The translations under genes and the position numbers were made by a program. Source: Parascardovia denticolens DSM 10105 = JCM 12538 (GTDB lineage: Bacteria > Actinomycetota > Actinomycetes > Actinomycetales > Bifidobacteriaceae). Taken from it: DNA of 64,000 bases. This document shows, in pieces, positions 9,655 to 51,353 of this stretch. Location: positions 124,001 to 188,000 of the forward strand of contig NZ_AP012333.1 in NCBI RefSeq assembly GCF_001042675.1, in the 5' to 3' direction. The notes below the pieces were generated by a model. That model worked only from the letters and a program-made list of their open reading frames with translations. It did not search any database and had not been told where the DNA came from. How positions within the stretch are numbered: position 1 is the stretch's first letter; each line of letters starts with the position of its first letter.

Positions 9655-11070
9655 ATGGTTGCTTCCCAAGAGGGGATTTCCCAGGGCAGGATTTCTCAAG
9701 AGGCGGTTCGGGCGAACGTCCATGCCCAGATGGGGGATCTGGTGGATTTCCTCAAGGCGAAAATCGCACGGAAGGCCGTTTCCGCCCAAGGGGTGGGATC
9801 CCCGGCCATGAAGGCGGACGCCGAGTTCGTGGCCGAGAACCTGCGAGCCGTGGGGATTGACGCCAGGGTGGAGCAATCCATGGGTCAGGACGGCAATCCC
9901 GCCGCCTGGGAAGTCGTCGGATCACGGGTGGTGGATCCGGCGAAGCCGACCGTTTTGCTCTATGCCCATCACGATGTGCAACCGGCCCCCAACGATGACG
10001 GGGTCTGGAAGACCGACCCCTTCCAAGGAACGGTGAACGAAGAGGATGGCCGGCTTTACGGGCGCGGGGCCTCCGACGACGGGGCCGGCATCGCCATCCA
10101 CCTGGGGGCCTTGAAGGCCTTGGGCGATGACCTGGGCGTGAACGTGAAAGTCTTCATCGAAGGCGAGGAGGAGATGGGGTCGGCGACCTTCATCCCCTTC
10201 GTCCAAGCCCATAAGGAGGATTTCGAGGCGGATGTGATGATTGTCGCGGATTCGGGGAACTGGTCGGACAGCATCCCCAGCCTCACCACCTCTTTGCGGG
10301 GGAACGCGGCCATGGATGTGACGGTGAGCGTTCTGGAGGCCCCGCGGCATTCGGGGGTGGCCGGAGGCCCCGTCCTGGACGCCAACACCATGGCCGCCTT
10401 GCTCATTTCGTCCATGTATGACGCCGATGGGGAATTGGTCGTTCCCGGGGTGGAATCGCAGGAAGTGGTCGGCGGTCTTCAACGGGACCTGGACGAGGCC
10501 CAGTGGCGGGCCGACGCGGCCGTCCTGCCTGGGGTGCGGCTGGCCGGGACCGGCTCGCTGGCTTCCCGGGTATGGGTCAAGCCCAGCGTCACCGTCATCG
10601 GTTTCGATGCCCATCCGGTGGAGGGCTCCTTCAATGTGATCGCCCCCAGCTGCCGCTTCCGCCTGTCCATGCGGACCGCCCCCAGCCAGGATCCCCGCCA
10701 GGCCATGCGGGCTTTGGGGGATTTCCTGGTGGAACATGCGCCTTTCGGTTGCGCGGTGGAGTGGAAAGAGGTGGACGCCGGACAAGGCTGGGCCATGGAC
10801 GCCGACTCCCCGGTCAGCAAGATCGCCGAGCGGGCTTTGGCCAGCGCTTTCCGGACGGACTTGGTCAACCAGGGCCAGGGCGGATCCATCCCCTTCATCC
10901 CCGATCTGTGCCGGATCTTCCCCCAGTACCACGTCTTGGTCACCGGGCCGGAGGACCCCAAGTCGAATGCGCATAGCCCCAATGAGAGCCAGTCCCTCTC
11001 CCTGTTGGAAAACAGCGCCGTGGCCGAGGCCTACATGCTGCGCGATTTCGCCGAGTTGGGCATCGAATAG
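9655..11070 (+). CDS. M20-family metallopeptidase / dipeptidase
   Basis: This 471-residue cytosolic zinc peptidase belongs to the M20 family (ArgE/DapE/CPG2/PepV superfamily). It shows the metal-binding motifs LYAHHDVQP, GRGASDDGAG and EGEEEMGS, and a dimerisation (lid) domain in the middle. A late histidine motif SPNESQSLS sits near the C-terminus. Family members cleave dipeptides or release acyl groups from amino acids. Length and the HHDVQ signature fit the dipeptidase branch used for peptide nutrition in bifidobacteria. The start ATG 9655 has AAAGGAG seven bases upstream. It is the last GC-rich core gene before the AT-rich insert that begins at 11,110. Confidence 0.9.
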   Translation: MVASQEGISQGRISQEAVRANVHAQMGDLVDFLKAKIARKAVSAQGVGSPAMKADAEFVAENLRAVGIDARVEQSMGQDGNPAAWEVVGSRVVDPAKPTVLLYAHHDVQPAPNDDGVWKTDPFQGTVNEEDGRLYGRGASDDGAGIAIHLGALKALGDDLGVNVKVFIEGEEEMGSATFIPFVQAHKEDFEADVMIVADSGNWSDSIPSLTTSLRGNAAMDVTVSVLEAPRHSGVAGGPVLDANTMAALLISSMYDADGELVVPGVESQEVVGGLQRDLDEAQWRADAAVLPGVRLAGTGSLASRVWVKPSVTVIGFDAHPVEGSFNVIAPSCRFRLSMRTAPSQDPRQAMRALGDFLVEHAPFGCAVEWKEVDAGQGWAMDADSPVSKIAERALASAFRTDLVNQGQGGSIPFIPDLCRIFPQYHVLVTGPEDPKSNAHSPNESQSLSLLENSAVAEAYMLRDFAELGIE

Positions 11071-11109
11071 GGGATGGCTGGGAATACGAGCGAGGACAAC
11101 GAATAAAAC

Positions 11110-11538
11110 ATGACAAATAATCTCATTGCTGTTGTTGGAGCTGCAATTATTCAAAATGGTCGGATTCTCTGTGCTCAAAGAGGTTCAGGCAAACAGCTAG
11201 ATGGTCTGTGGGAATTTCCGGGAGGAAAAATTGAAGCTGGGGAGACTCCTGAAGTAGCACTTGAGCGAGAGATTCGTGAGGAGCTTCTCTGCCATATTGA
11301 AGTTGATCGGAAAATTTGCACGAGTCAATACAGGTACTCTTTTGGGACCGTTGAATTGACGACTTTTGTTTGCCACCTTCTCGACGATAAGCCCCATCTT
11401 ACTGAGCATAAGAAATTTGCATGGGTGGAGCCCAACCGTCTTTCCGACTTGGAATGGGCTCCGGTAGATCAGGAGGCGGTTCGTCTGCTTTCTGAGAACC
11501 TTCAAGGGGCAGATGTACTGGATGAGGAGGGAAAGTGA
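11110..11538 (+). CDS. Nudix hydrolase (MutT-like) of an AT-rich two-gene module
   Basis: This 142-residue single-domain Nudix protein has the box from Gly39 to Leu60 (GKIEAGE ... REIREEL). It keeps the metal-binding glutamates, but the usual glycine near the end of the box is Leu60. Similarity is to the 8-oxo-dGTP diphosphatase type, with EFPGGK in front of the box. AT-rich codon usage contrasts sharply with the M20 gene before it. The stop overlaps the start of the helicase gene by four bases (GTGA), so the two are almost surely co-translated. Its substrate is unknown. It may clear or produce a nucleotide signal for the partner nuclease-helicase. Confidence 0.82.
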   Translation: MTNNLIAVVGAAIIQNGRILCAQRGSGKQLDGLWEFPGGKIEAGETPEVALEREIREELLCHIEVDRKICTSQYRYSFGTVELTTFVCHLLDDKPHLTEHKKFAWVEPNRLSDLEWAPVDQEAVRLLSENLQGADVLDEEGK

Positions 11539-14500
11539 GTCCTGATTTGTCAGAGGAGGACGATCAAAGCGCTTTCTCCAGCAAACTTGAGGATCAGATG
11601 AAGCTGGCTCTCACGAACGGCTTTATTGACACAAATCGTGGCAGTGAGAGCTCTCTTTCTCCGCGGCTCATCGCGAATCGGGAAGGGTATGCTTTTGGCG
11701 ATATCATCCAAGATGAGATTTCTTCGAGCACAGATTTTGAGATTTCTGTCGCTTTTGTAACATCTGAGGCGATCTACAAACTGCGGCAAAGCTTTATCGA
11801 CTTTTACTCTCATTATCGTCAGTCTCAAACCGTTGATCCTCAGCATTCTCACGGATTACTTATTACATCAACATATAATTATTTTAATTCTCCTCAAGTT
11901 TTTCAAGAATTACTCAAGCTGAAGAGAGACCAGCATATTGATGTGAGAGTCTGGCAGGGGACCCCTATCAATGATCAATCAGTCCTTAAACTTAAACTGG
12001 GCCGGAACTATGATGTGCCCTATCATCCTAAAGGATATGCATTCACTCATTCTCGTGGTGAGAATCGCGAGATCATTCGTACGTTTTTTGTAGGAAGTTC
12101 CAATCTAACTTCGCGGGCTTTGTCGACCAATCAAGAGTGGAATTTGAAAGTATCATCCACGGATCAAGGAGATCTGACCCGTCAAATTGAAGATGAATTT
12201 CACAGGCAGATGGAGGAGTCCGTTCCTCTGGATGAAGATTGGATTTCTGATTACGAGAGAGAGTTTGAAGGGTATTTTCGTGTCAGAAAAGAACAAGAAA
12301 AAGTCGCTGAGCAGGAACTGAAAAATCGCCCGATTGAGCCAAATAAGATGCAAAAAGAAGCCTTGCAAAATCTGGCAAGACTTCGGAGAGAAGGCGAGCA
12401 AAAAGCTCTTGTAATATCAGCTACAGGAACTGGGAAAACGTATCTGGCTGCCCTTGACGTTAAAGCAGTGCATCCGCGTCGTTTATTGTATATTGCAGGA
12501 CGGCAAGAAATCCTTAAAAAGTCATTGGACTCTTTTAAGCGCATTTTGGGTTGCCAAGATGAGGACCTTGGTCTGCTCTCAGGGGAGGGAAAAGAAACAC
12601 AAGCGCAGTATCTTTTTGCCACGGTACAAACGATGAGCAAGCCGAATATTTTGCATGGATTTGCTCCTGATGCCTTTGACTATATTTTGATTGATGAAGC
12701 TCACCATGCACAGGCATCAACGTATAGGGTCATCGTTGACTATTTTCATCCTCAGTTTCTCTTGGGCATGACTGCGACTCCGGAGAGGCAGGACGAACGA
12801 AATATTTTTGAGCTTTTCGACCATAATGTCGCCTATGAGATTCGGCTGCAGAAAGCGCTTGAAGCTAACATGCTGGCACCGTTCCACTACTACGGAATTG
12901 CTGAATATCTTGATGGTGGTGAAAGCGAAATCCAGTCGACAAGCCCGCAAACCTTAGGGTTTGAATTATCGCAGTTTGTTTCTAGGGAGCGTGTGAATTA
13001 TATTATTCAAAAGCTTCAGGAATATAGCCCTGCGAGTGTTCTTGCTCGCGGACTAATTTTTTGTTCCCGGATCGAAGAAGCTCAAGACCTTTCTCAATTA
13101 TTTAATCAGTCTTATAATCTCCAGGCCGAGCGTTTATACCGGACCGTTGCCTTGAGCGGGAAAGATAGTGCCGAAGCTCGTCTGACTGCAATTGACCAAC
13201 TTGATCATGGGGAGCTTGACTATATTCTGACCGTCGACCTTTTTAATGAAGGTATTGATATTCCTTCCATCAATCAAGTAGTCATGTTGCGTAGCACTCA
13301 GTCCAGCATTGTTTTTACTCAGCAGCTAGGGCGTGGTTTGCGTAAAGCTCCGGGTAAAAGCTCTCTGATTGTTATTGATTTTATCGGGAATTATGCAAAC
13401 AACTATTTGATTCCACTGGCTTTATATGGGAATACAGGAGACGCTGACCGAGCTCGGAAAAATATGCGACAGAGGTCCTTGGGCTTGTCCTCAATTACCT
13501 TTGATGAGATTTCTAAAGAGCGTGTATTTGAGTCGCTGGATAAGGTCAACCTATCCGATCTGGGTAAACTTACCAGCTACTACAACGATCTTCGAATCCA
13601 GCTTAATCGGGTTCCGATGCTTATGGATTTCATGTCAAGAGATCCTTCTTTACCGTGTACCCTTGCCTCAGCTTCGCTGAATGGGGGAGGAGGCCGTAAT
13701 TATGCGGATTTTGTTATATCAAGGGAAAAGATACTTGCTCGTAAACTTGTGAAATTCCATGGGGAAAATAAAGAAAATCAATCAGACAGTTCAAACAATG
13801 CGAGAGCAGGCGGGTCGGCTGTCTCGAGAAGTAGTCTCAATAAAGGAATCAGCTTTGACCCTAATTCTTATTCGCTGACTTCTTATCAGCGGGGCCTGCT
13901 CAAAATGGTCACGTCTTGTTTGCTGCGGGGATTGCGACCTCATGAATTGTATGCTGTAGCCCTCCTAGCAAAGGTTAATTTATCCTCTTTGCCTGAATTT
14001 GAATGGCTTCAGGAGAGAATCTTTGACGGCGGACAGGGCTTTGACGGTAATTCTGACGGTGAAGGTAGTTTTGGCAACGAGGGTGACCGGCGTGAGTTCA
14101 AAACCCTTACTGTCGAGCAGCTTGCTATGTGCGTCTCCCACGACTTTGCGAGTATTTATTGCGATGAGACCAATCTGCGGTTTTCTGAATCTGCTTTGAA
14201 TGTTCTGGACTTTTCCTATTTCTCTCAGCCGAATTCCCAGCGTTTTGGCAACGCGTCTTTTGCGGAAAGATTTGCTTCTCAAGAGGACGGGAAAATCAAT
14301 TATCGATTGAGCCGTCTTGCAGCTCAAGCTTTGGATGATCCTATCTTTCGGCAATTTTTTGATGATTCAATATGCTGCGGCCTGGCTTTATGCAGGCAGC
14401 TTTTCTTGGGGGCAATTCATGAAGGAAGAGCCATCGATCGTGGCTTTATTTATGGCGAGAAATATACTATTGCCGATGTCATGCGATTGTGTTGCTGGCC

Positions 14501-14915
14501 GGTAGAATTGATTCCTCAAAATGTTGGTGGGTATCGTTTGAGTCGAGAGACGAACACTATGCCGATTTTTATTAAGTATGAGAATTCTCAGTATGCAGAT
14601 TGCTTTAAGGATGAGCAAAATATTGATTACTTCAGTAAAAATCAGCGCCATCTTAAATCTCCCGAGTTTCAGTGGCTCAGAGATCAGCACGAAGGAGATT
14701 TCATTCCTATATTCATTATGCGAAAGGCAGATGCAGCCAGTAAATCTTATTACTATGTTGGTTGTGTTCAAAAGGCGCAGAATATGCATGAGATTTCCCA
14801 CCAAAATCTGAGTGGCAAAGAGGTTACCCTTGTCGAATCAACGTTGCGGCTCAAACGACCTGTCGATTCTGAACTTTTTACGCATTTAACTGGGAAGTCC
14901 TTAGCCGAATTTTAG
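11535..14915 (+). CDS. PLD-like nuclease / SF2 helicase / DUF3427-type protein
   Basis: This is a 1126-residue multidomain protein. Residues about 50-220 resemble a PLDc_2 phospholipase-D nuclease module, with HPKGYAF followed by FFVGSSNLTSRAL and NQEWN. Residues about 270-650 are a superfamily 2 helicase: ATGTGKT near residue 295, DEAH at 387-390, MTATPER, and motif VI QQLGRGLRKAPG. The long C-terminal part ends in a region resembling DUF3427 (PIFIMRKAD ... YYYVGCVQ). The start GTG 11535 overlaps the Nudix stop, with GAGGAGG upstream. The gene is AT-rich and lies between core genes, suggesting horizontal acquisition. Nuclease-plus-helicase proteins of this plan are often suspected antiphage factors. 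That role is inferred here. Confidence 0.85.
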   Translation: MSPDLSEEDDQSAFSSKLEDQMKLALTNGFIDTNRGSESSLSPRLIANREGYAFGDIIQDEISSSTDFEISVAFVTSEAIYKLRQSFIDFYSHYRQSQTVDPQHSHGLLITSTYNYFNSPQVFQELLKLKRDQHIDVRVWQGTPINDQSVLKLKLGRNYDVPYHPKGYAFTHSRGENREIIRTFFVGSSNLTSRALSTNQEWNLKVSSTDQGDLTRQIEDEFHRQMEESVPLDEDWISDYEREFEGYFRVRKEQEKVAEQELKNRPIEPNKMQKEALQNLARLRREGEQKALVISATGTGKTYLAALDVKAVHPRRLLYIAGRQEILKKSLDSFKRILGCQDEDLGLLSGEGKETQAQYLFATVQTMSKPNILHGFAPDAFDYILIDEAHHAQASTYRVIVDYFHPQFLLGMTATPERQDERNIFELFDHNVAYEIRLQKALEANMLAPFHYYGIAEYLDGGESEIQSTSPQTLGFELSQFVSRERVNYIIQKLQEYSPASVLARGLIFCSRIEEAQDLSQLFNQSYNLQAERLYRTVALSGKDSAEARLTAIDQLDHGELDYILTVDLFNEGIDIPSINQVVMLRSTQSSIVFTQQLGRGLRKAPGKSSLIVIDFIGNYANNYLIPLALYGNTGDADRARKNMRQRSLGLSSITFDEISKERVFESLDKVNLSDLGKLTSYYNDLRIQLNRVPMLMDFMSRDPSLPCTLASASLNGGGGRNYADFVISREKILARKLVKFHGENKENQSDSSNNARAGGSAVSRSSLNKGISFDPNSYSLTSYQRGLLKMVTSCLLRGLRPHELYAVALLAKVNLSSLPEFEWLQERIFDGGQGFDGNSDGEGSFGNEGDRREFKTLTVEQLAMCVSHDFASIYCDETNLRFSESALNVLDFSYFSQPNSQRFGNASFAERFASQEDGKINYRLSRLAAQALDDPIFRQFFDDSICCGLALCRQLFLGAIHEGRAIDRGFIYGEKYTIADVMRLCCWPVELIPQNVGGYRLSRETNTMPIFIKYENSQYADCFKDEQNIDYFSKNQRHLKSPEFQWLRDQHEGDFIPIFIMRKADAASKSYYYVGCVQKAQNMHEISHQNLSGKEVTLVESTLRLKRPVDSELFTHLTGKSLAEF

Positions 14916-15167
14916 GTATTGCAGTGGTATCGCTGCATCTGTAACCAAGCGTTGATACCTTTGCTTATCACGCCTGTTCTTCATCGCTGGGCGTCGATAC
15001 GTAGGACACGGCATATTCTTCGCTTCACACATCCTGGTATGAAAACAAGAATCACTTTCTCCAGACCATAACGAGCTCAACACGTTCAGTACAGTTTTAT
15101 CAACGACTTTCGTCCAACCTCGAGTTCGACCCTCAATCAAATAAAATACTGGTCAAGCCTTTACGGC
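14916..15167. other. AT-richer gap with no supported gene
   Basis: The 252 bases between the helicase and the YiiX-like gene contain a 79-codon minus-strand frame (14901-15140) that overlaps the helicase end and matches nothing I recognise. Composition is intermediate between the insert and the core, so the right border of the acquired segment probably lies here. I see no terminal repeats, tRNA or terminator. Confidence 0.4.
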
Positions 15168-15701
15168 TCAACACCGGTCAACGGGGGCAGTATCCAGCCT
15201 TCCTAAAAATCGCAAATGCGGTGATTTGGCCAGCTGGCTGGGATTGCTGCCGGGCTGTCCTACAGGAACGGGGACTCCCAGTTTTGCATAGTAGGATTTC
15301 CAGAATGGGGAGATTTCCTGGCTGGAATCCCCAAACCGCATAGGGATTGTGCCAAAAATCGGCAGTATCGCAGCTATGTACTGGGAGCAGTAAAAACTTT
15401 CCGTCCCAGGACGAAAACTCACATTGTAGGGCTTGCCTAAGTGCTTCTTCGCATTGGCGAGCGTCTGCTGACAGTCGATCCGCGGGTAGCGGTACACGAA
15501 TACGGCGTCCCCATAATCCGTTAAAAAATCGGATAGTTTCTGCCTGATGACTCCGTTTTCCTTCGTGGCATGGTAGACCTGACTTTCCAGGTAAATCGCG
15601 ATATGACTATATTTTCCCGTCGATTCCTGGATCGCCTGGGACATGTCGGATGAGTCGCGGGACAGCAGCAGATCGCCGCACTCCAGGTCCTGGATTTTCA
15701 T
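15168..15701 (-). CDS. YiiX/YebB-like NlpC/P60-superfamily cysteine hydrolase
   Basis: This 177-residue protein resembles the permuted papain-like YiiX/C92 group. A short N-terminal beta segment (LECGDLLLSRDS) is followed by His33 in YSHIAIYL. The presumed nucleophile Cys105 comes later in FYCSQYIAA. This Cys-after-His order is the circular permutation seen in the family. Members are thought to hydrolyse amide or ester bonds, often in cell-envelope or lipid-linked substrates. No signal peptide is visible, so it is probably cytosolic or peripheral. The ribosome site before ATG 15701 is weak. A terminator-ended structured RNA lies directly upstream on the same strand, so read-through control is possible. 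Confidence 0.75.
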   Translation of the reverse strand: MKIQDLECGDLLLSRDSSDMSQAIQESTGKYSHIAIYLESQVYHATKENGVIRQKLSDFLTDYGDAVFVYRYPRIDCQQTLANAKKHLGKPYNVSFRPGTESFYCSQYIAAILPIFGTIPMRFGDSSQEISPFWKSYYAKLGVPVPVGQPGSNPSQLAKSPHLRFLGRLDTAPVDRC

Positions 15702-15809
15702 GGCTTCAGTCTAGCACGGGGTGGGCTCGCAACAATGTTGACGGTGACGGTGATTGGGCGGGAAGCGTGCCGCGGCGCAGGGGCGTGGCTGAGGCATGTC
15801 CAGGAACAT

Positions 15810-15965
15810 AAAAAGCCGGTCCCGAAGGACCGGCCTGCAAGTCAAACCTTAGCGGAAATCTCGCACAACATCATCGTCATGGCGGTAAGTCTCATATAAA
15901 TCCGCCCAACATCTAGACCTTACGTGATCTGTACTCTTGTGGGCTTCCGCTTTTAAGTTTTCCTT
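15810..15965 (-). ncRNA. candidate structured small RNA with own promoter and terminator
   Basis: Read on the minus strand, a 13-bp closing stem forms between AAACTT plus AGCGGAA (15960-15945) and TTCCGCT plus AAGGTTT (15857-15844). Inside it is an arm GCCCA/TGGGC with an inner hairpin AGATC/GGTCT, and a possible GCGG/CCGC arm. A strong terminator hairpin follows at once. No coding frame fits. It is too short for tmRNA or RNase P RNA and does not resemble SRP RNA. It may be a free sRNA, or a leader controlling the YiiX-like gene 109 bases downstream. Confidence 0.5.
15815..15834 (-). terminator. rho-independent terminator
   Basis: GCCGGTCC pairs perfectly with GGACCGGC around a four-base loop. 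Read on the minus strand it is followed by TTTTT. It ends the candidate small RNA described above. Confidence 0.8.
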
Positions 15966-15971
15966 GTACTT

Positions 15972-16001
15972 AAATTATCCCTCGTGTACGGCAAAACGCA
16001 A
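15972..16001 (-). promoter_or_regulatory. candidate sigma70-type promoter for the small RNA
   Basis: On the minus strand TTGCGT (16001-15996) and TAATTT (15977-15972) are separated by 18 bases. This would start transcription near 15965, just before the closing stem of the predicted RNA. Confidence 0.45.
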
Positions 16002-16098
16002 AATCGAAACACTGAATCTTCACAATTTATTTCGCCATCTTTTTCCTAGCAAAGGGGGTCGAGGAAGATAAGAAGAGGATGAGCGCGCGCGTTCCTTT

Positions 16099-16173
16099 TT
16101 ATCCACATCCCATTCGTGGCTGTCTGTGGATATCGGTGGATAAGTCCCGAGAAAGGCCACATTCGACCACATT
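16099..16173. repeat. repeat copy 1 with DnaA-box-like sites, upstream of tadZ
   Basis: TTATCCACA at 16099-16107 is a perfect DnaA-box consensus. Two one-mismatch sites in the opposite orientation follow at 16125-16133 and 16135-16143. Bases 16136-16173 recur with a single mismatch at 20025-20062. The segment directly precedes the Tad pilus locus and is the most distinctive feature of the roughly 480-base gap 15,702-16,184, apart from the small RNA. Confidence 0.55.
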
Positions 16174-16184
16174 GACTTGCAAAG

Positions 16185-17276
16185 ATGGATTTTCCCTCGG
16201 AGACCGGATTCAATGATGGTATGAACACTCAAATCATCTCGGAACAAGGCCCTCTGCGGGTGGAAGAACGCTATTATTTGCCGACGCCGGTGGATTCGCG
16301 GCGGCAGGGGTCCGGCGACCAGGCTTTTCGGCGGTTTCCGGCGGAGAGGGGGGCGCGGGCTTCCTCCGGACCGCGGGCGGCTTATCAGGGAGGGCAGGTC
16401 TACCTTTTCTCATCGGCGACGGGCGGTTGCGGGACAAGCACGGCGGCGGCGCTTTTCGCCTCGTATCTTTCTGCGGGAGGGGAGCGGATCATCCTGCTGG
16501 ACCTTGACCTATCCCGGGGAGGGATGGACGTCCTGTTGGGGCTAGAGCAGGAGGAAGGCCTGCGTTGGTCCCAGGTGAAAGCCCCGCTGGGGATGATCGA
16601 CGGCCTGGCTTTGACGAACGAGTTGATCCAGTGGGATGGTTGCCCCTTGCTCAGCGCGGATCCGTGGCGGGGATCCCCGCATCAATGGTGGGAGATCGCG
16701 GCCGTCATCCGTGCCTTGTGCGATTACGCAGACGCGGTCGTCTGCGATTGCGGGACGAACCTGGCCATCATCCGGGGGCTGCAGACCTACTTGGAGGGGA
16801 CGCGGTCGGACTCGTCCCAAGCGAAGGATTGGTATCAGATTTGGGATCGGGTCGGGAACAGGACGCATATCGCCGTAGCCCTTGTGGTGGATTTGACGGT
16901 TCTGGGTCTGATGCGGGCGCAAGGGGCGGCGAGCAGGTTGAGCGGCCGCTCACAAGCGCTGAATCTTGCGCTTCTTGGAATATTGCCGGTGGCGGCGAGC
17001 CTGGAGGCGCGGAGGGGGTTCGCCCAGCGGCGTAAACGTTCACAAGGAGGCAAGGGGATGGTGTCCGCTCAGGAAGCGAGTGACCATTTAGGCCAACCGA
17101 TCTACGGTCCTTTGCGCCCTGACAGGGGTCTGGACCTCAGCATTCGCCAAGGTCGGGGATTGGAAGACGCGCCGAGAGAGTATGAGCGGATATTCGCGGA
17201 TTTGGAAGAGGGCCTGAGCTCCTCTTCCCCGGCGTTGAGTGGAGGGCATCATGACCTTGCGCCTCGGACCGCTTGA
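16185..17276 (+). CDS. tadZ: TadZ/CpaE-like ParA-family protein of Tad pilus locus
   Basis: This 363-residue protein contains a MinD/ParA-type ATPase fold with a deviant Walker A (SSATGGCGTSTAAAL) near residues 75-90. A Walker-B-like LDLDLSRGGMD segment follows. Such CpaE/TadZ proteins localise the pilus assembly machine at the membrane. In actinobacteria this gene is often annotated as septum-site-determining or SAF-type. No strong ribosome site precedes ATG 16185 or the alternative ATG 16221. I keep the longer form with low certainty. It overlaps the start of tadA by 26 bases and heads a compact pilus operon. Confidence 0.8.
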   Translation: MDFPSETGFNDGMNTQIISEQGPLRVEERYYLPTPVDSRRQGSGDQAFRRFPAERGARASSGPRAAYQGGQVYLFSSATGGCGTSTAAALFASYLSAGGERIILLDLDLSRGGMDVLLGLEQEEGLRWSQVKAPLGMIDGLALTNELIQWDGCPLLSADPWRGSPHQWWEIAAVIRALCDYADAVVCDCGTNLAIIRGLQTYLEGTRSDSSQAKDWYQIWDRVGNRTHIAVALVVDLTVLGLMRAQGAASRLSGRSQALNLALLGILPVAASLEARRGFAQRRKRSQGGKGMVSAQEASDHLGQPIYGPLRPDRGLDLSIRQGRGLEDAPREYERIFADLEEGLSSSSPALSGGHHDLAPRTA

Positions 17277-20011: not shown

Positions 20012-20062
20012 TTGTGGATTGATGTGGATAAGTCCCGAGAAAGACCACATTCGACCACATTC
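20012..20062. repeat. repeat copy 2 with DnaA-box-like site, upstream of pilin gene
   Basis: TGTGGATAA at 20023-20031 is a perfect DnaA box on the minus strand. Bases 20025-20062 match 16136-16173 except at one position. The copy sits in the gap between tadC and the Flp-like pilin gene. Confidence 0.55.
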
Positions 20063-47496: not shown

Positions 47497-49065
47497 ATGA
47501 CCATTTCCTCCGCACAATCGTTCCCCGCTTTCGCCGACTACGTCACCCCCTACGGGGGACTCGATAAGATCGACGCTTTCGACTACCTGGATTATCTGAA
47601 AACCCACGAAGACGCCCCCCGCAAAGAGGGCAAGGTGATCCTGGTGACCGCCGACACCCCTTTGAAGGCCTCCCGCGGGGAAGGCAAGACCACCACCACC
47701 ATCGCCTTGATCGACGCCTTGCGCGCTCGCGGGGTGGATGCGGCAGCCGTCCTCAGGCAACCGAGCATGGGTATCACCGCCGCCGGGTCCAAAGGCGGGG
47801 CTTCCGGGGGCGGCAAGGCCAGCCTGTCTCAGGCGGAGCTGGCCGATTGGGGTCTGACCGGGGAGATGGCCCGTATCGCCGACGCTCAGAACCTCCTGGT
47901 CGCCTTCTGCGAGAAGGCCGTGGATGAAGGGGTCTTGGACCGGATTTTCATCCCCCGCGTATCGGAGACCCCTTCCCGTTCCCTGCGTTCCATAGGGGTG
48001 GACGGGGGCAAGCTGCCCGAGCGGGTGGTCATCACCCCAGCCTGCGAGCTTATGCAGATCGTGGTCCTGTCCCGTTCGGCCCAGGAGCTGGCAGACCGCA
48101 TCGGCTCCATATTGGCCGGCAGCAAGGAAGGCAAACCGATCGCCGTGCGTGACTTCGTGGATGTGGACCGGATCGTCCGCGTGGTGGGCAACGCCGTGCA
48201 GCCCGCTTATATGGAGACGGCCGAAGGCAGCCCGGTCTATATCCATTGCGGGCCTTTCGCCAATGTTTCCTTGGGCATTCCCGGGCTTTCCGCGGTGGAC
48301 CTGGCTTGCTCCCTGCATGATTTGGTCGTGGTCGAAGCCGGGTACGGGGCCGACGCCGGGGCCCAGAAATGGCTGGATATCGCCGCCCGGGAGAGCGGGG
48401 CCCAGTGGCCGGCCGCCGCCGTGGTGGTCACCCGGGCTTCCACCTGGCGCGATGACCCTGCCCTCCAGTGGCGCTACCCCTTCCATGTGCGCCGGTTGGA
48501 ATCCTTGGGCATCCCCACCTTCCCCCTCATCAATCTCTGGGCAGGGGAGGACGACCAGGTCCCGGCTCTGCGCCGGACGGCCTCCGATTTGGGCTTTCGC
48601 GATCCGATCATCGGCAACCTTTTCCGCGATGGGGGAGAAGGGATTAAGGCCCAGTTGGATGATTTCATCTCGGCTTCAGGTCCGGCTTCAGCTTCGATTT
48701 CCGACTCCGGCCACGGCTTCGGCTCCGATACTCCCCATGCCTCCCACCGTGGCATGCCTTTGTTGGACAAGGTCGCCTGGACCATCGAAAACGCCTACGG
48801 GGTTCCGGCGGACCGGATCCGTCGCAAAGAGGGGTTCGATGAGTCTTTGGCCATCGCCCGGAACCTGGCCCAGCAGGCGGGCATCGCTTTGGATGATTTG
48901 GCCTTGTGCGCCATCAAATCCCCGGCCACCATGACCGATGACGATTCCGCCTTCGAGGGGGAGCGCACGGTCACTTTGAAAAAAGTGTCCATCAACGCCG
49001 GCTCCGGCGTGGTCTCGGTCAACCTGACCACGTCTTTGACCACTCCCATGCCCAAGATCGTCTGA
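47497..49065 (+). CDS. fhs: formate-tetrahydrofolate ligase
   Basis: This is a 522-residue cytosolic ligase that makes 10-formyl-tetrahydrofolate from formate, ATP and tetrahydrofolate for purine and initiator-tRNA formylation. It shows the P-loop region TPLKASRGEGKTTTT, RQPSMGITAAGSKGGASGGG, and VEAGYGADAGAQKW, matching the family. Length is slightly under typical. A Ser/Ala/Gly-rich insert lies at about residues 395-415. It has its own terminator-separated upstream gap and is the last core protein gene before tRNA-Lys. Confidence 0.93.
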   Translation: MTISSAQSFPAFADYVTPYGGLDKIDAFDYLDYLKTHEDAPRKEGKVILVTADTPLKASRGEGKTTTTIALIDALRARGVDAAAVLRQPSMGITAAGSKGGASGGGKASLSQAELADWGLTGEMARIADAQNLLVAFCEKAVDEGVLDRIFIPRVSETPSRSLRSIGVDGGKLPERVVITPACELMQIVVLSRSAQELADRIGSILAGSKEGKPIAVRDFVDVDRIVRVVGNAVQPAYMETAEGSPVYIHCGPFANVSLGIPGLSAVDLACSLHDLVVVEAGYGADAGAQKWLDIAARESGAQWPAAAVVVTRASTWRDDPALQWRYPFHVRRLESLGIPTFPLINLWAGEDDQVPALRRTASDLGFRDPIIGNLFRDGGEGIKAQLDDFISASGPASASISDSGHGFGSDTPHASHRGMPLLDKVAWTIENAYGVPADRIRRKEGFDESLAIARNLAQQAGIALDDLALCAIKSPATMTDDDSAFEGERTVTLKKVSINAGSGVVSVNLTTSLTTPMPKIV

Positions 49066-49221
49066 AACCGGGGGCTTGAGGTCAGTGATCCAAAACGGCG
49101 GCTGAAACTGATGGTCTGGATCACGCAACACGCCGGATTTTGCCTCCGTCGTTATAATGAGTATAGTGGGTACTCGGTTCTCGTAAGAGAGCCGTCCTGA
49201 GCATCTCACGCTCAGGTAAAT

Positions 49222-49295
49222 GCCCCTTTAGCTCAGCTGGCTAGAGCAGCGGACTCTTAATCCGCGTGTCGAGGGTTCGAGTCCCTCAGGGGGCA
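49222..49295 (+). tRNA. tRNA-Lys(CTT)
   Basis: A 74-base tRNA with acceptor stem GCCCCTT/AGGGGGC, D arm AGCTCAG...GAGC, anticodon loop CTCTTAA (anticodon CTT), and T arm GAGGGTTCGAGTCCCTC. CCA is not encoded. A CCTGAGC/GCTCAGG hairpin lies just upstream. The tRNA is intact and marks the left edge of the mobile region. Confidence 0.96.
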
Positions 49296-49598
49296 CGGTT
49301 TGGAAGCGAGGTCATCGTTCAGCGAGGTCCATGGTTCAAATCCATGCCCCGCTACCAGGAAAGTCTCAGGTTTCACATGAAAAAAGTCTGAGGCTCTTTC
49401 TATATCATCAAGCGTCCATGTTGTTTTCCCTGCTAGCTTCGAGGAAAGCGTCGGCTGAGTAATCCCAAGAACCTTTGCTAAATCTTTTTGATATACATTT
49501 GTAATTGCCATTGCCACTTTCATATTTGTTGTGACATTGTTCCTTAGATGCAGATGCGTTTGTGCGGCAGTCATCTCTATAGTCTGTATTTCTTCCAT
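49257..49598 (-). CDS. XRE-family helix-turn-helix regulator reading into the tRNA region
   Basis: This 113-residue protein has an XRE helix-turn-helix at about residues 35-85 (YQKDLAKVLGITQPTLSSKL, then WTLDDIERASDFF). The last 30 residues are encoded by the antisense strand of the tRNA remnant and of tRNA-Lys, giving the familiar FEPWT / RDSNPRH tRNA-derived string. So the C-terminus is created by the junction, not by the original gene. It pairs with the divergent XRE gene to the right, and their HTH helices are closely alike. It probably represses element genes. A natural stop in the element's free form is unknown. Confidence 0.7.
   Translation of the reverse strand: MEEIQTIEMTAAQTHLHLRNNVTTNMKVAMAITNVYQKDLAKVLGITQPTLSSKLAGKTTWTLDDIERASDFFHVKPETFLVAGHGFEPWTSLNDDLASKPCPLRDSNPRHAD
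49324..49357 (+). repeat. tRNA 3'-end remnant (initiator-Met-like), probable attachment-site scar
   Basis: Thirty-four bases read GAGGTC then a T arm (CATGG TTCAAAT CCATG) and an acceptor 3' strand CCCCGCTACCA. This resembles the 3' end of an initiator-type tRNA-Met, with CCA encoded. No 5' half is nearby. Such fragments are left when an element integrates into a tRNA gene. It starts 28 bases after the intact tRNA-Lys. Confidence 0.6.
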
Positions 49599-49620
49599 AT
49601 TTAAATTATCGAATATTTCA

Positions 49621-49662
49621 TTGACAAATACAAAATAGACACGCCGGAATAGATTAAATCTA
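49621..49662. promoter_or_regulatory. divergent XRE control region with palindromic operator
   Basis: A perfect 13-base palindrome TAGATTAAATCTA lies at 49650-49662. TTGACA stands at 49621-49626. The region separates the two divergent XRE genes and is AT-rich. It is the likely operator for one or both regulators. Confidence 0.5.
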
Positions 49663-49686
49663 TCTATTTTGCAGTACTATATAGAT

Positions 49687-49920
49687 ATGGTCAATATGGA
49701 TTTAAATAAAGATAGTCTCAAACGAAAAATTCGCATATTTTGTGCAGAGCGAAATTGCACGATGAGCCAGGTTGCAAAAGAGATAGGAATTTCCCAGCCG
49801 ACTCTTTCGTCGAAACTTAATGGGCACACTCGTTTTTCCGCTAATGAAATCATCGGTCTTGCACATCTGCTTGGCGTCACTCCTAATGATTTATTGCTTT
49901 CGGATCGGGGGGTGGAGTGA
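49687..49920 (+). CDS. small XRE-family helix-turn-helix regulator
   Basis: This 77-residue protein is almost entirely a helix-turn-helix domain (MSQVAKEIGISQPTLSSKL, then RFSANEIIGLAHLLGVTPND). Its recognition helix matches that of the divergent neighbour (QPTLSSKL), so both may bind the same operator. The pair resembles the cI/cro layout that decides quiescence or activation of phages and conjugative elements. ATG 49687 and 49696 are possible starts. Neither has a strong ribosome site. The gene is AT-rich compared with the following element genes. Confidence 0.8.
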   Translation: MVNMDLNKDSLKRKIRIFCAERNCTMSQVAKEIGISQPTLSSKLNGHTRFSANEIIGLAHLLGVTPNDLLLSDRGVE

Positions 49921-50159
49921 TGTGTGTTTTTGTGGCTGGTGTGGGAGGCCCCCAGCGGGGGTGGCCTGCTGGGGGTGGTTTCCAATATTCATGGTTTTTG
50001 GATTTGGAAAGAGGGGCCGGGTTGGTTGGCGGCCCGTGCTCGAGTTTACGGGATGTTCCTGGGATTGGTGGCCGTTCGGCGTGTCGTGAGGCTGTCTTGC
50101 GGGCTGCTTGTTTGCGGTCTCATCCGTCGTATCGGGTTGGGAAAGCTGAGGTGATGTGA

Positions 50160-51353
50160 GTGAGTTGGCAGGCGAGTAGTTGGGCGTTGAGGGAGGCTCC
50201 GGCGGCGACTCCTTATGCGCGGCTTGTGTTGATGGCGTTGGCGGATCGTGCGCATCCGGATGGGTCGCGTTGTTGGGCGCGTGTGGAGGTGTTGGCCGCT
50301 GAGGCTCATTGTTCCCGGCGGACGGTGATCTCCTGTTTGCATTCGTTGGAGGAGTCGGGGGCGATCAGCCGGGGGGATCAGTCGTTGGCGTGTTATGACG
50401 AGCGCGGCCGGTATCTGGCTCCGCAGCATCGGCCGATCGTGTGGAACCTGAACATGGGGGTGACTTTGGAGTCTTTGGAAGAGGATCCCGACGTGCATGA
50501 GGGGCCGGATGGTTTCGACCGGCCGGATGCTGGTTCTAGGGGTGCAAAAGTTGCACGTCTGGAAAATGGCGGGATTCCAACGGTTTCCAGAGGTGCAGAA
50601 ATTGCACCTCGGAATCCCAGAGGTGCAAATGATTGCACGTCTAGAGGTGCAAACTGTTGCACCTCTAATAAGGAAGAACAGAATATAAACATAACTACCC
50701 CCCTAGGGTCCCCCCAGCAGGGGGACGCCGACCAGGGTGAGGGTGATGACGGCTGCTCTGAGGGGCTTGCCGAAAAGGCTGGTCGTGTGGGGGAGGTGTT
50801 GGCCGCGGCGGGCGTGGTGTTGCCGGCTGGGTGGCCGGATCGTCGTGAGCTGCGTTGTCTGCGCGCTCTTCTTGGCTCGTACGGCCTGGATACGGTGCTG
50901 GCGGTGACCGGCTGGGCTGTCGGCCGGTCGTATTGGCTTCCCCGCGTCTCCTCGCTGCGTGGCTTGGCTCGGGTGTTCGAGCAGGCGCGCTTGGAGATGA
51001 TCTCGCAGCGGAATCCCGGCCCGGCCGGGACGGTGGGCTCGCGGCCGGCGCATCGGCATTCGTGGGCGTGCGAGCATACGCTCGCCGCCGTGGGCGCGTC
51101 CTGTCAGGATGATGTGTGCGCTGATGGCGGGTTGTTCGCCCGGGCGGTGCGAGCGGCCCGGCTGTTGAACGAGGGGCGCGATCCGGATTCGGTTTGCGGC
51201 CTGTTGGACGCCGCCCAGGATGAGGGGAGGGGTTCTCCCGCTTCGCCTGCGGGTCTTGCTGCCGTCCCTGGCTCTGGTTGCGGGGGCTCGCCTGCCGCGC
51301 CGGCTGGTGCGTCTGGTGGTGGTTTCCGGTCCCGGTTCAGCCGGTTCCGGTGA
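50160..51353 (+). CDS. winged-helix replication-initiator-like protein
   Basis: This 397-residue protein starts with a winged-helix domain (residues about 5-75: WALREAPAATPYARLVLMAL ... CSRRTVISCLHSLEESGAI). The same plan is common in phage and plasmid replication initiators of actinobacteria. A middle segment of repeated SRGA/RGAN words encodes the iterons described below. A helical C-terminal region (RELRCLRALLGSYGLDTVLA ...) and a Gly/Ser/Pro-rich end follow. It probably binds its own gene to start replication of the excised element. The start GTG 50160 has GAGGTG six bases upstream. Confidence 0.75.
   Translation: MSWQASSWALREAPAATPYARLVLMALADRAHPDGSRCWARVEVLAAEAHCSRRTVISCLHSLEESGAISRGDQSLACYDERGRYLAPQHRPIVWNLNMGVTLESLEEDPDVHEGPDGFDRPDAGSRGAKVARLENGGIPTVSRGAEIAPRNPRGANDCTSRGANCCTSNKEEQNINITTPLGSPQQGDADQGEGDDGCSEGLAEKAGRVGEVLAAAGVVLPAGWPDRRELRCLRALLGSYGLDTVLAVTGWAVGRSYWLPRVSSLRGLARVFEQARLEMISQRNPGPAGTVGSRPAHRHSWACEHTLAAVGASCQDDVCADGGLFARAVRAARLLNEGRDPDSVCGLLDAAQDEGRGSPASPAGLAAVPGSGCGGSPAAPAGASGGGFRSRFSRFR
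50537..50697. repeat. four iteron-like inverted repeats plus AT-rich stretch: candidate origin
   Basis: Four copies of an imperfect inverted repeat based on AGAGGTGCAA...TTGCACCTCT lie at 50537-50560, 50589-50610, 50619-50642 and 50643-50666. The last is perfect in its arms. An AT-rich tract (50667-50697) follows directly. This iteron-plus-melting-region layout inside the initiator gene is typical of intragenic origins such as lambda-type replicators. Confidence 0.6.

Follow-up and report, generated by a model that had tools for sequence, protein, structure and literature searches.

Modified-cytosine-dependent (Type IV) restriction is already known, and its closest described representative here, SauUSI, combines a PLD nuclease, a translocating ATPase, a coupler and a recognition domain of the SRA fold with named 5-methylcytosine (5mC)-pocket residues (PMC7913695). 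Methylated target DNA itself stimulates the SauUSI ATPase (PMC7913695), and the enzyme acts on DNA containing 5mC or 5-hydroxymethylcytosine and not on 4-methylcytosine (m4C) DNA (PMC3874153). The adjacency of SauUSI and MutT genes is also in print: a figure legend records MutT homologues adjoining SauUSI homologues in Streptococcus (PMC7641849), and PDC-S07, a phage defence candidate in PADLOC, co-localised with Type IV restriction-modification systems in 23 of 23 Streptococcus suis occurrences (PMC12813430). The present study concerns a pair of genes of this composition, a Nudix hydrolase gene and a SauUSI-type gene, at positions 11110-14915 of a 64,000-nucleotide stretch of Parascardovia denticolens DSM 10105 = JCM 12538 (NZ_AP012333.1, positions 124,001 to 188,000 of the forward strand; hereafter the window), whose genome (G000; G and L numbers are our handles for genomes and loci) is 1.89 Mb on a single contig.

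We hold with moderate confidence that the pair is a Type IV restriction module of two genes, acquired horizontally, in which the Nudix protein prevents 5-methyl-deoxycytidine triphosphate (5-methyl-dCTP) and 5-hydroxymethyl-dCTP from entering DNA and so preserves the reliability of the mark that the nuclease reads. What is new here is this proposed mechanism for the pairing, which we infer from homology, measured relatives and gene neighbourhoods. The passages of papers that name PDC-S07 do not propose it, neither Nudix nor MutT occurs in the text of the paper on the SauUSI mechanism (PMC7913695), and no such mechanism was met in the literature, as far as its passages go, joining SauUSI, DUF3427 or type IV restriction with Nudix, MutT, pyrophosphohydrolase or 5-methyl-dCTP, a scope that does not extend to the original SauUSI paper.

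The two proteins of the pair

The pair comprises the following features:

11110-11538, + strand: Nudix hydrolase gene, 142 aa, ATG start, PDC-S07/NudG-like (Pfam, PADLOC and PDB matches)
11535-14915, + strand: SauUSI-type restriction enzyme gene, 1126 aa, GTG start (PDB 7CLG, PADLOC mREase_IV, Pfam, pocket residues)
11535-11538, + strand: GTGA overlap, the start of the second gene lying on the stop of the first (sequence)

The overlap makes translational coupling of the two genes likely, and in other tandem pairs the spacing between the Nudix and nuclease genes ranges from overlaps up to more than 100 bp. Four Pfam domains of the large protein exceed their cut-offs, namely PLDc_2 (29.5 bits against a cut-off of 27), ResIII (1.3e-37), Helicase_C (1.9e-12) and DUF3427 (2.2e-55), the last marking the C-terminal SRA-like recognition domain. 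Matches over the protein were stronger still, both to the PADLOC model mREase_IV (7e-165) and to PDB 7CLG (phmmer, 4.4e-156). We take 7CLG to be the structure of SauUSI. In agreement with this, the residue numbers given in PMC7913695 land on the named residues. The HxK and GSSN motifs of an N-terminal PLD nuclease and the SATGTGKT and DEAH motifs of a superfamily 2 (SF2) ATPase align to 7CLG, and of six residues checked in the 5mC pocket and finger, Y831, F841, I842 and D858 are identical in the window protein. Judged by its sequence, the large protein belongs with SauUSI among the Type IV restriction enzymes, which depend on modified cytosine. The host fits this class, as a PF00145 search at E <= 1e-20 found no C5-cytosine methyltransferase in the window genome. 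At the family level there is a deficit only, with such a methyltransferase in 11/44 SauUSI-paired genomes and in 52/107 of the comparison group (Fisher p 0.011, a test that ignores kinship).

The Nudix protein exceeds the Pfam cut-off for NUDIX and matches PADLOC PDC-S07 (model PDLC04899) at 169.5 bits (6e-51). Its NCBIfam matches include MutT and NudG, none above the equivalog cut-off, and with 88.8 bits against a cut-off of 156 for PRK10546 (NudG) the protein is NudG-like, not NudG. The closest PDB matches at 1e-12 were 5X1X, 3R03, 3GWY, 3HHJ, MutT2 (5ZRC), 3EES and NudG (2RRK); the third-best of these, 3GWY, is 38.7% identical to the window protein and itself matches the PDC-S07 model at 141.6 bits. 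The kcat/Km values published for 3GWY are 4.8e6 M-1s-1 for 5-Me-dCTP, 4.4e6 M-1s-1 for 5-hydroxymethyl-dCTP and 8.5e4 M-1s-1 for 5-OH-dCTP (PMC5158307), and for Escherichia coli NudG, too, the listed activity is that of a 5-methyl-dCTP pyrophosphatase (PMC5389931), with a quoted value of 3e5 M-1s-1 (PMC3744803). The catalytic Nudix box (G, E, RE, EE) is complete in the window protein, and W34, E35, G38, E45, R53, E54, E57, E58 and D120 are invariant in 126/126 aligned PDC-S07 proteins. From these relatives, the window protein is probably a 5-methyl-dCTP and 5-hydroxymethyl-dCTP pyrophosphohydrolase.

A first-pass annotation of the window, made from the sequence alone, had described two frames overlapping by GTGA and had named the Nudix, PLDc_2, SF2 helicase and DUF3427 domains; frames and overlap exist as described, and every domain call lies above its Pfam cut-off. 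It had also remarked on a leucine in place of the late glycine of the Nudix box. That Leu60 is real and also ordinary, the column being variable and holding Gly in just 40 of the 126 aligned PDC-S07 proteins, and we rejected it as a mark of altered chemistry. The defence role that the annotation had suggested gains support from the SauUSI homology in the form of restriction, but the nuclease-helicase is not an unknown one, being homologous to a Type IV enzyme that has been characterised.

Conservation of the pair and neighbours of its Nudix type

We searched for DUF3427 and PDC-S07 in 151 family genomes, 376 phylum genomes (own genome excluded) and 378 Bacilli, counting a DUF3427 gene as full-scoring at >=130 bits (at least 130) and as paired when a PDC-S07 match of at least 140 bits lay within 6 kb on the same contig. 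Over the three samples, 134/148 full-scoring genes were paired (family 45/52, window pair included; phylum 6/6; Bacilli 83/90), so the annotation's linking of a Nudix gene with a PLD-helicase-DUF3427 gene as neighbours survived comparison with other genomes. Relative to the DUF3427 gene, the Nudix gene lay upstream in tandem in 81 pairs, convergent in 47 and downstream in tandem in 6. Pairwise distances of the Nudix and nuclease proteins correlate (Mantel r 0.53, 69 pairs, 0/999 permutations). Weaker DUF3427 matches were paired in 3/11 cases in the family, 0/33 in the phylum and 6/38 in Bacilli; the weak phylum proteins kept D858 and W868 in 21/21 aligned, and 16/21 have Val at Y831, as do 12/69 paired ones.

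The partnership extends to further records. Among six organism-named loci the Nudix gene was present in five (four Streptococcus, one Arcobacter), the sixth being a 7.5-kb contig without it. Of 42 matching plasmid and phage records 8 were examined, and plasmids of Lactiplantibacillus plantarum, Latilactobacillus curvatus and Hymenobacter canadensis carry the pair; the six plasmid loci among them have the Nudix gene in three, which hold closer homologues, and none within the examined stretch in three more distant ones. A Staphylococcus phage-labelled record (host S. aureus, unannotated) contains a 953-aa open reading frame (ORF) that shares 97.2% identity with the recognition part of 7CLG (181 aa compared). 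Its start lies 1 base beyond the stop of a Nudix ORF, which shares 96.7% identity with 5X1X over 122 aa. The solved MutT 5X1X presumably comes from S. aureus. With this Nudix ORF directly upstream, SauUSI itself therefore has the same Nudix partner, one that already has a solved structure.

PDC-S07 genes with no DUF3427 within 6 kb (at least 140 bits; solo genes) show what else this Nudix type adjoins. The family sample holds ten, four of them in one genus (g6) with a common neighbour and one in G130; the remaining five include four with a C5-cytosine methyltransferase gene at 0.8-4.1 kb (G058, G124, G029, G026), and G045, which has none in that range. Three of those four have a nearby restriction endonuclease, of the Eco29kI, MvaI/BcnI and Sau3AI/MutH types. 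Between G058 and G065 the flanks are 88-97% identical on both sides and the Nudix genes 95.5% identical, with SauUSI in G065 and C5-methyltransferase systems in G058; G026 and G070 show a similar swap with a flank common on one side only. Remnants of DUF3427 lie beside C5-methyltransferase genes at G098:C1:1541485-1543003, G109:C1:545093-547001 and G114:C30:5332-8465, as if the arrival of a 5mC-writing system had broken a 5mC-cutting one. Elsewhere we examined 3/10 solo loci of the phylum and 39/50 of Bacilli, most neighbours being judged by eye from ORF starts and those in Bacilli also being matched against ten query proteins. One of the three phylum loci adjoins McrBC (G493), and 5/39 in Bacilli show a 5mC-linked system, including SRA-HNH enzymes (G577, G875), DISARM DrmA/DrmB (G866) and, at G659 (L128), a C5-methyltransferase 3.6 kb away (Pfam 1.2e-70). 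We take the DISARM methyltransferase to be of a 5mC-writing type. At L119, the SRA-HNH enzyme gene and the Nudix gene overlap by four bases.

In the fifth of these Bacilli loci the two kinds of domain occur in a single protein of 514 aa (G589, L154; 7986-9530, minus strand). Its nuclease part matches Pfam HNH (1e-12) and, as best PDB match, 6GHC (1.6e-22, residues 303-377), named 5-methylcytosine-specific restriction enzyme A; directly after this McrA-type HNH part comes a PDC-S07 Nudix domain (378-503, 5.7e-41), and the upstream part aligns at 26% to the SRA-HNH protein of L148. That they are joined in one protein argues that a nuclease of 5mC-dependent type and the Nudix domain act on one problem.

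Larger assemblies were also seen. At L237 (5580-10975), L148 (5262-11439) and L119 (5616-8662) the Nudix gene is accompanied by a helicase protein of Schlafen group 3, which Pfam matches in each, and by SauUSI-like and/or SRA-HNH nucleases, and these loci are possible larger Type IV clusters. L237 also encodes a MazG-like pyrophosphohydrolase (Pfam 3.7e-11), and L148 a similar-looking small ORF without a Pfam match; the presence, as in L237, of another pyrophosphatase fold next to this nuclease fits the idea of pool cleaning.

A proposed guard of the 5mC mark and its rivals

By homology to SauUSI, the SRA-like domain would flip out and bind 5-methyl- or 5-hydroxymethylcytosine in incoming DNA, the ATPase would translocate and the PLD domains would cut the modified DNA. 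By analogy with its measured relatives, the Nudix protein would hydrolyse 5-methyl-dCTP and 5-hydroxymethyl-dCTP to the monophosphate and pyrophosphate. The gene neighbourhoods suggest a third step, in which modified dCTP, whether produced by a phage or salvaged from the breakdown of modified DNA, would be destroyed before a polymerase uses the dCTP analogue; otherwise, the nuclease would take its own marked chromosome for foreign and cut it. Beside C5-methyltransferase systems, stray 5-methyl-dCTP would mark invader DNA as self and the same cleaning would prevent this, which would explain why the same Nudix type is found there. Because 5mC is common to the restriction neighbours, removing 5-methyl- and 5-hydroxymethyl-dCTP would guard the meaning of the mark for readers and writers alike. 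More tentatively, and with a chance that we place a little short of even, we suggest a general 'mark-fidelity' layer of prokaryotic immunity, in which a modified-dCTP pyrophosphohydrolase has been repeatedly recruited by 5mC readers and writers (SauUSI, McrBC, McrA-type SRA-HNH enzymes including the fusion, C5-methyltransferase restriction systems and DISARM) and 5mC enters DNA only via a methyltransferase, never via the nucleotide pool.

Several observations weigh against this account, some of them biochemical. As 5-methyl-dCMP is poorly phosphorylated, cells may make little 5-methyl-dCTP. The window enzyme has Tyr at W868 and Gly at M829, and 11 of the 44 SauUSI-paired family genomes do have a C5-methyltransferase. 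Hydrolysis by 3GWY extends to the ribonucleotide 5-Me-CTP (kcat/Km 6.7e6 M-1s-1; PMC5158307), and restriction in E. coli needed no more than a single SauUSI polypeptide (PMC3874153), in a host that has NudG. Others concern the distribution of the genes. The 47/134 pairs that are convergent do not form one operon, and 14/148 full-scoring DUF3427 genes are unpaired: PDC-S07 lies ~7 kb away in G130 and elsewhere in the genome in G006, G033, G690, G700, G711 and G660, the DUF3427 gene is truncated in G052, G096, G114 and G137 and a fragment-sized frame in G644, and the enzymes of G739 and G810 look intact with no PDC-S07 at 1e-20. In favour of the account, all four family genomes with a full-scoring DUF3427 gene but no strong PDC-S07 anywhere have truncated genes; no substitute pyrophosphatase was obvious by eye in nine loci with SauUSI genes lacking PDC-S07. 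No 5mC-linked neighbour was found, with ten query proteins and by eye, for 34/39 Bacilli solo genes, whose neighbourhoods look core-like. Paired and solo PDC-S07 genes are intermixed in the tree (22 parsimony changes), in which 50/121 inner branches are unresolved and well-supported branches force fewer than 22 changes. PDC-S07 was also counted as the most prevalent defence system of Enterobacter, in 99.06% of the genomes of that study (PMC12851794), and was equated with MutT in all strains examined in another (PMC13239085). The Enterobacter counts may include core NudG/MutT-type genes, and PDC-S07 as such is no immune gene but a broad subfamily of Nudix proteins on which immune systems appear to draw; the label alone proves nothing, since many PDC-S07 genes look like housekeeping.

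The main rival to a guard of the mark is offensive, the Nudix protein starving phages with 5-hydroxymethyl- or 5-methylcytosine DNA of modified dCTP and the SauUSI homologue cutting DNA in which such bases are still incorporated, as two layers against one kind of phage. That 3GWY hydrolyses 5-hydroxymethyl-dCTP as well as 5-methyl-dCTP (PMC5158307) and that SauUSI takes both modified forms of DNA (PMC3874153) suit it, but the same Nudix type sits in many core loci and adjoins C5-methyltransferase restriction systems, where phages with hydroxymethylcytosine are not an obvious reason for its presence, and we consider it improbable, at about one chance in five. The dull explanation, to which we give slightly less weight again, is plain housecleaning by a MutT/NudG-type mutation-avoidance gene that merely travels with the nuclease, for instance limiting the mutagenic stress of DNA breakage. 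It draws on the commonness of PDC-S07 genes in core loci, on their near universality in Enterobacter (PMC12851794) and on the sub-threshold MutT and NudG matches; pairing of 134/148 genes in three orientations, the McrA-type fusion, the recurrence beside other 5mC systems and the correlated distances within pairs all exceed what a passenger would lead one to expect.

The first-pass annotation had suggested a third possibility, that the Nudix partner makes or clears a nucleotide product, which as a signal would switch the nuclease on. Nudix domains have been tied to NAD-related conflict systems (PMC7159879), but the pair contains no signal synthase, the SauUSI ATPase responds to methylated target DNA itself (PMC7913695) and the characterised relatives are dCTP-analogue pyrophosphatases; signalling is therefore very improbable, and cleaning of the modified-dCTP pool the likelier activity. 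Should the Nudix protein indeed guard the mark, it would bear on a premise of mark-based immunity, which presumes that the mark enters DNA only where an enzyme places it: with random incorporation of 5-methyl-dCTP, the host would come under attack from Type IV enzymes, and invaders would get past methyltransferase-based systems. A conserved, dedicated pool cleaner would explain how such systems stay safe, and SauUSI, well studied as a barrier to DNA uptake, would gain a second gene that has so far been overlooked. The recurrence of the partnership in other bacteria suggests that keeping modified building blocks out of DNA helps this immunity to tell self from invader.

The probable insertion and comparison with known systems

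The pair is part of a longer insertion, which holds one further gene:

11082-15817 (approximate boundaries), no strand: ~4.7-kb insertion relative to both congeners (empty site in G021 and G005)
15168-15701, - strand: C92 (YiiX-type) permuted papain-like amidase gene, inside the insertion (Pfam PF05708 2.9e-16; GC 0.524)

In the two congeners compared, G021 and G005, the upstream M20 peptidase is present at 73-74% identity, and matches to window ~11000 and ~15803-15826 lie only ~115-119 bp apart; neither genome matches DUF3427, and their best matches to PDC-S07 are not strong (E 1.6e-10 and 3.1e-9). Given this empty site, the ~4.7 kb carrying the pair and the C92 gene were either gained in the window or lost in both congeners, and base composition leads us to prefer insertion over double loss. 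The guanine-plus-cytosine (GC) fraction is 0.471 in the Nudix gene and 0.440 in the large gene, against 0.648 in the flanking M20 peptidase gene and 0.625 in the gene at 16185-17276. The lowest-GC 3.8-kb stretch of the window begins at 11101 (0.444), the minimum outside the patch being 0.578, and the AT-rich patch extends beyond the large gene to ~15.8 kb, taking in the C92 gene. The annotation's picture of an AT-rich pair between GC-rich genes is borne out, and a foreign origin is supported. Around the pair there is no defence island: of ten ORFs between 4891 and 24116 scanned with PADLOC, seven had no match at 0.001 and three had short or weak matches only (30.2, 26.9 and 18.7 bits), and Pfam matches nearby were to polyphosphate kinase, a T2SSE secretion ATPase and DnaX. 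The flanks of the insertion showed no exact direct repeat of more than 9 bp. The C92 gene was rejected as a conserved third member, since the window copy has no homologue in the other compared loci, and is probably a passenger.

Other features of the window were recorded. The insertion ends just beside an intergenic element (15818-16036) that is ~80% identical in both congeners and on the minus strand terminates in a strong terminator hairpin and T run; it is likely a small RNA gene, one with no Rfam match at gathering score. An Rfam RNA within 10800-16400 was rejected on the same threshold, three sub-threshold matches falling within 15780-16080 (E 0.12-0.43). A 23-base sequence at 16139-16161 recurs with one mismatch at 20027-20049, near secretion/pilus-type genes, where zero would be expected by chance, and a second AT-rich patch (49000-50500, GC ~0.47-0.52) lies at the tRNA-Lys gene at 49222-49296.

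Among known systems, the window enzyme shares with SauUSI the order of PLD, SF2 ATPase, coupler and SRA-like domains, and a Nudix gene adjoins the enzyme gene in the Staphylococcus-labelled record too; it differs in length (1126 against 953 aa), is ~40% identical over the N-terminal two thirds and replaces M829 by Gly and W868 by Tyr. The published MutT-SauUSI adjacency in Streptococcus involves the same gene neighbours, but the legend assigns the pairing no function (PMC7641849). The window Nudix protein shares the PDC-S07 model with 3GWY (Bacteroides fragilis Q5LBB1), to which it is only 38.7% identical, its own substrate being predicted, and shares with E. coli NudG a NudG-like profile and the complete catalytic box. 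It likewise matches the phage defence candidate of PADLOC, although that model also takes in core Nudix genes. McrA-type SRA/HNH enzymes adjoin PDC-S07 in two cases (L119, L148) and have a nuclease part fused to it in one (L154), and they thus represent another 5mC reader with the same Nudix partner; they differ in having an HNH nuclease in place of PLD and ATPase domains, and none was found beside the window pair.

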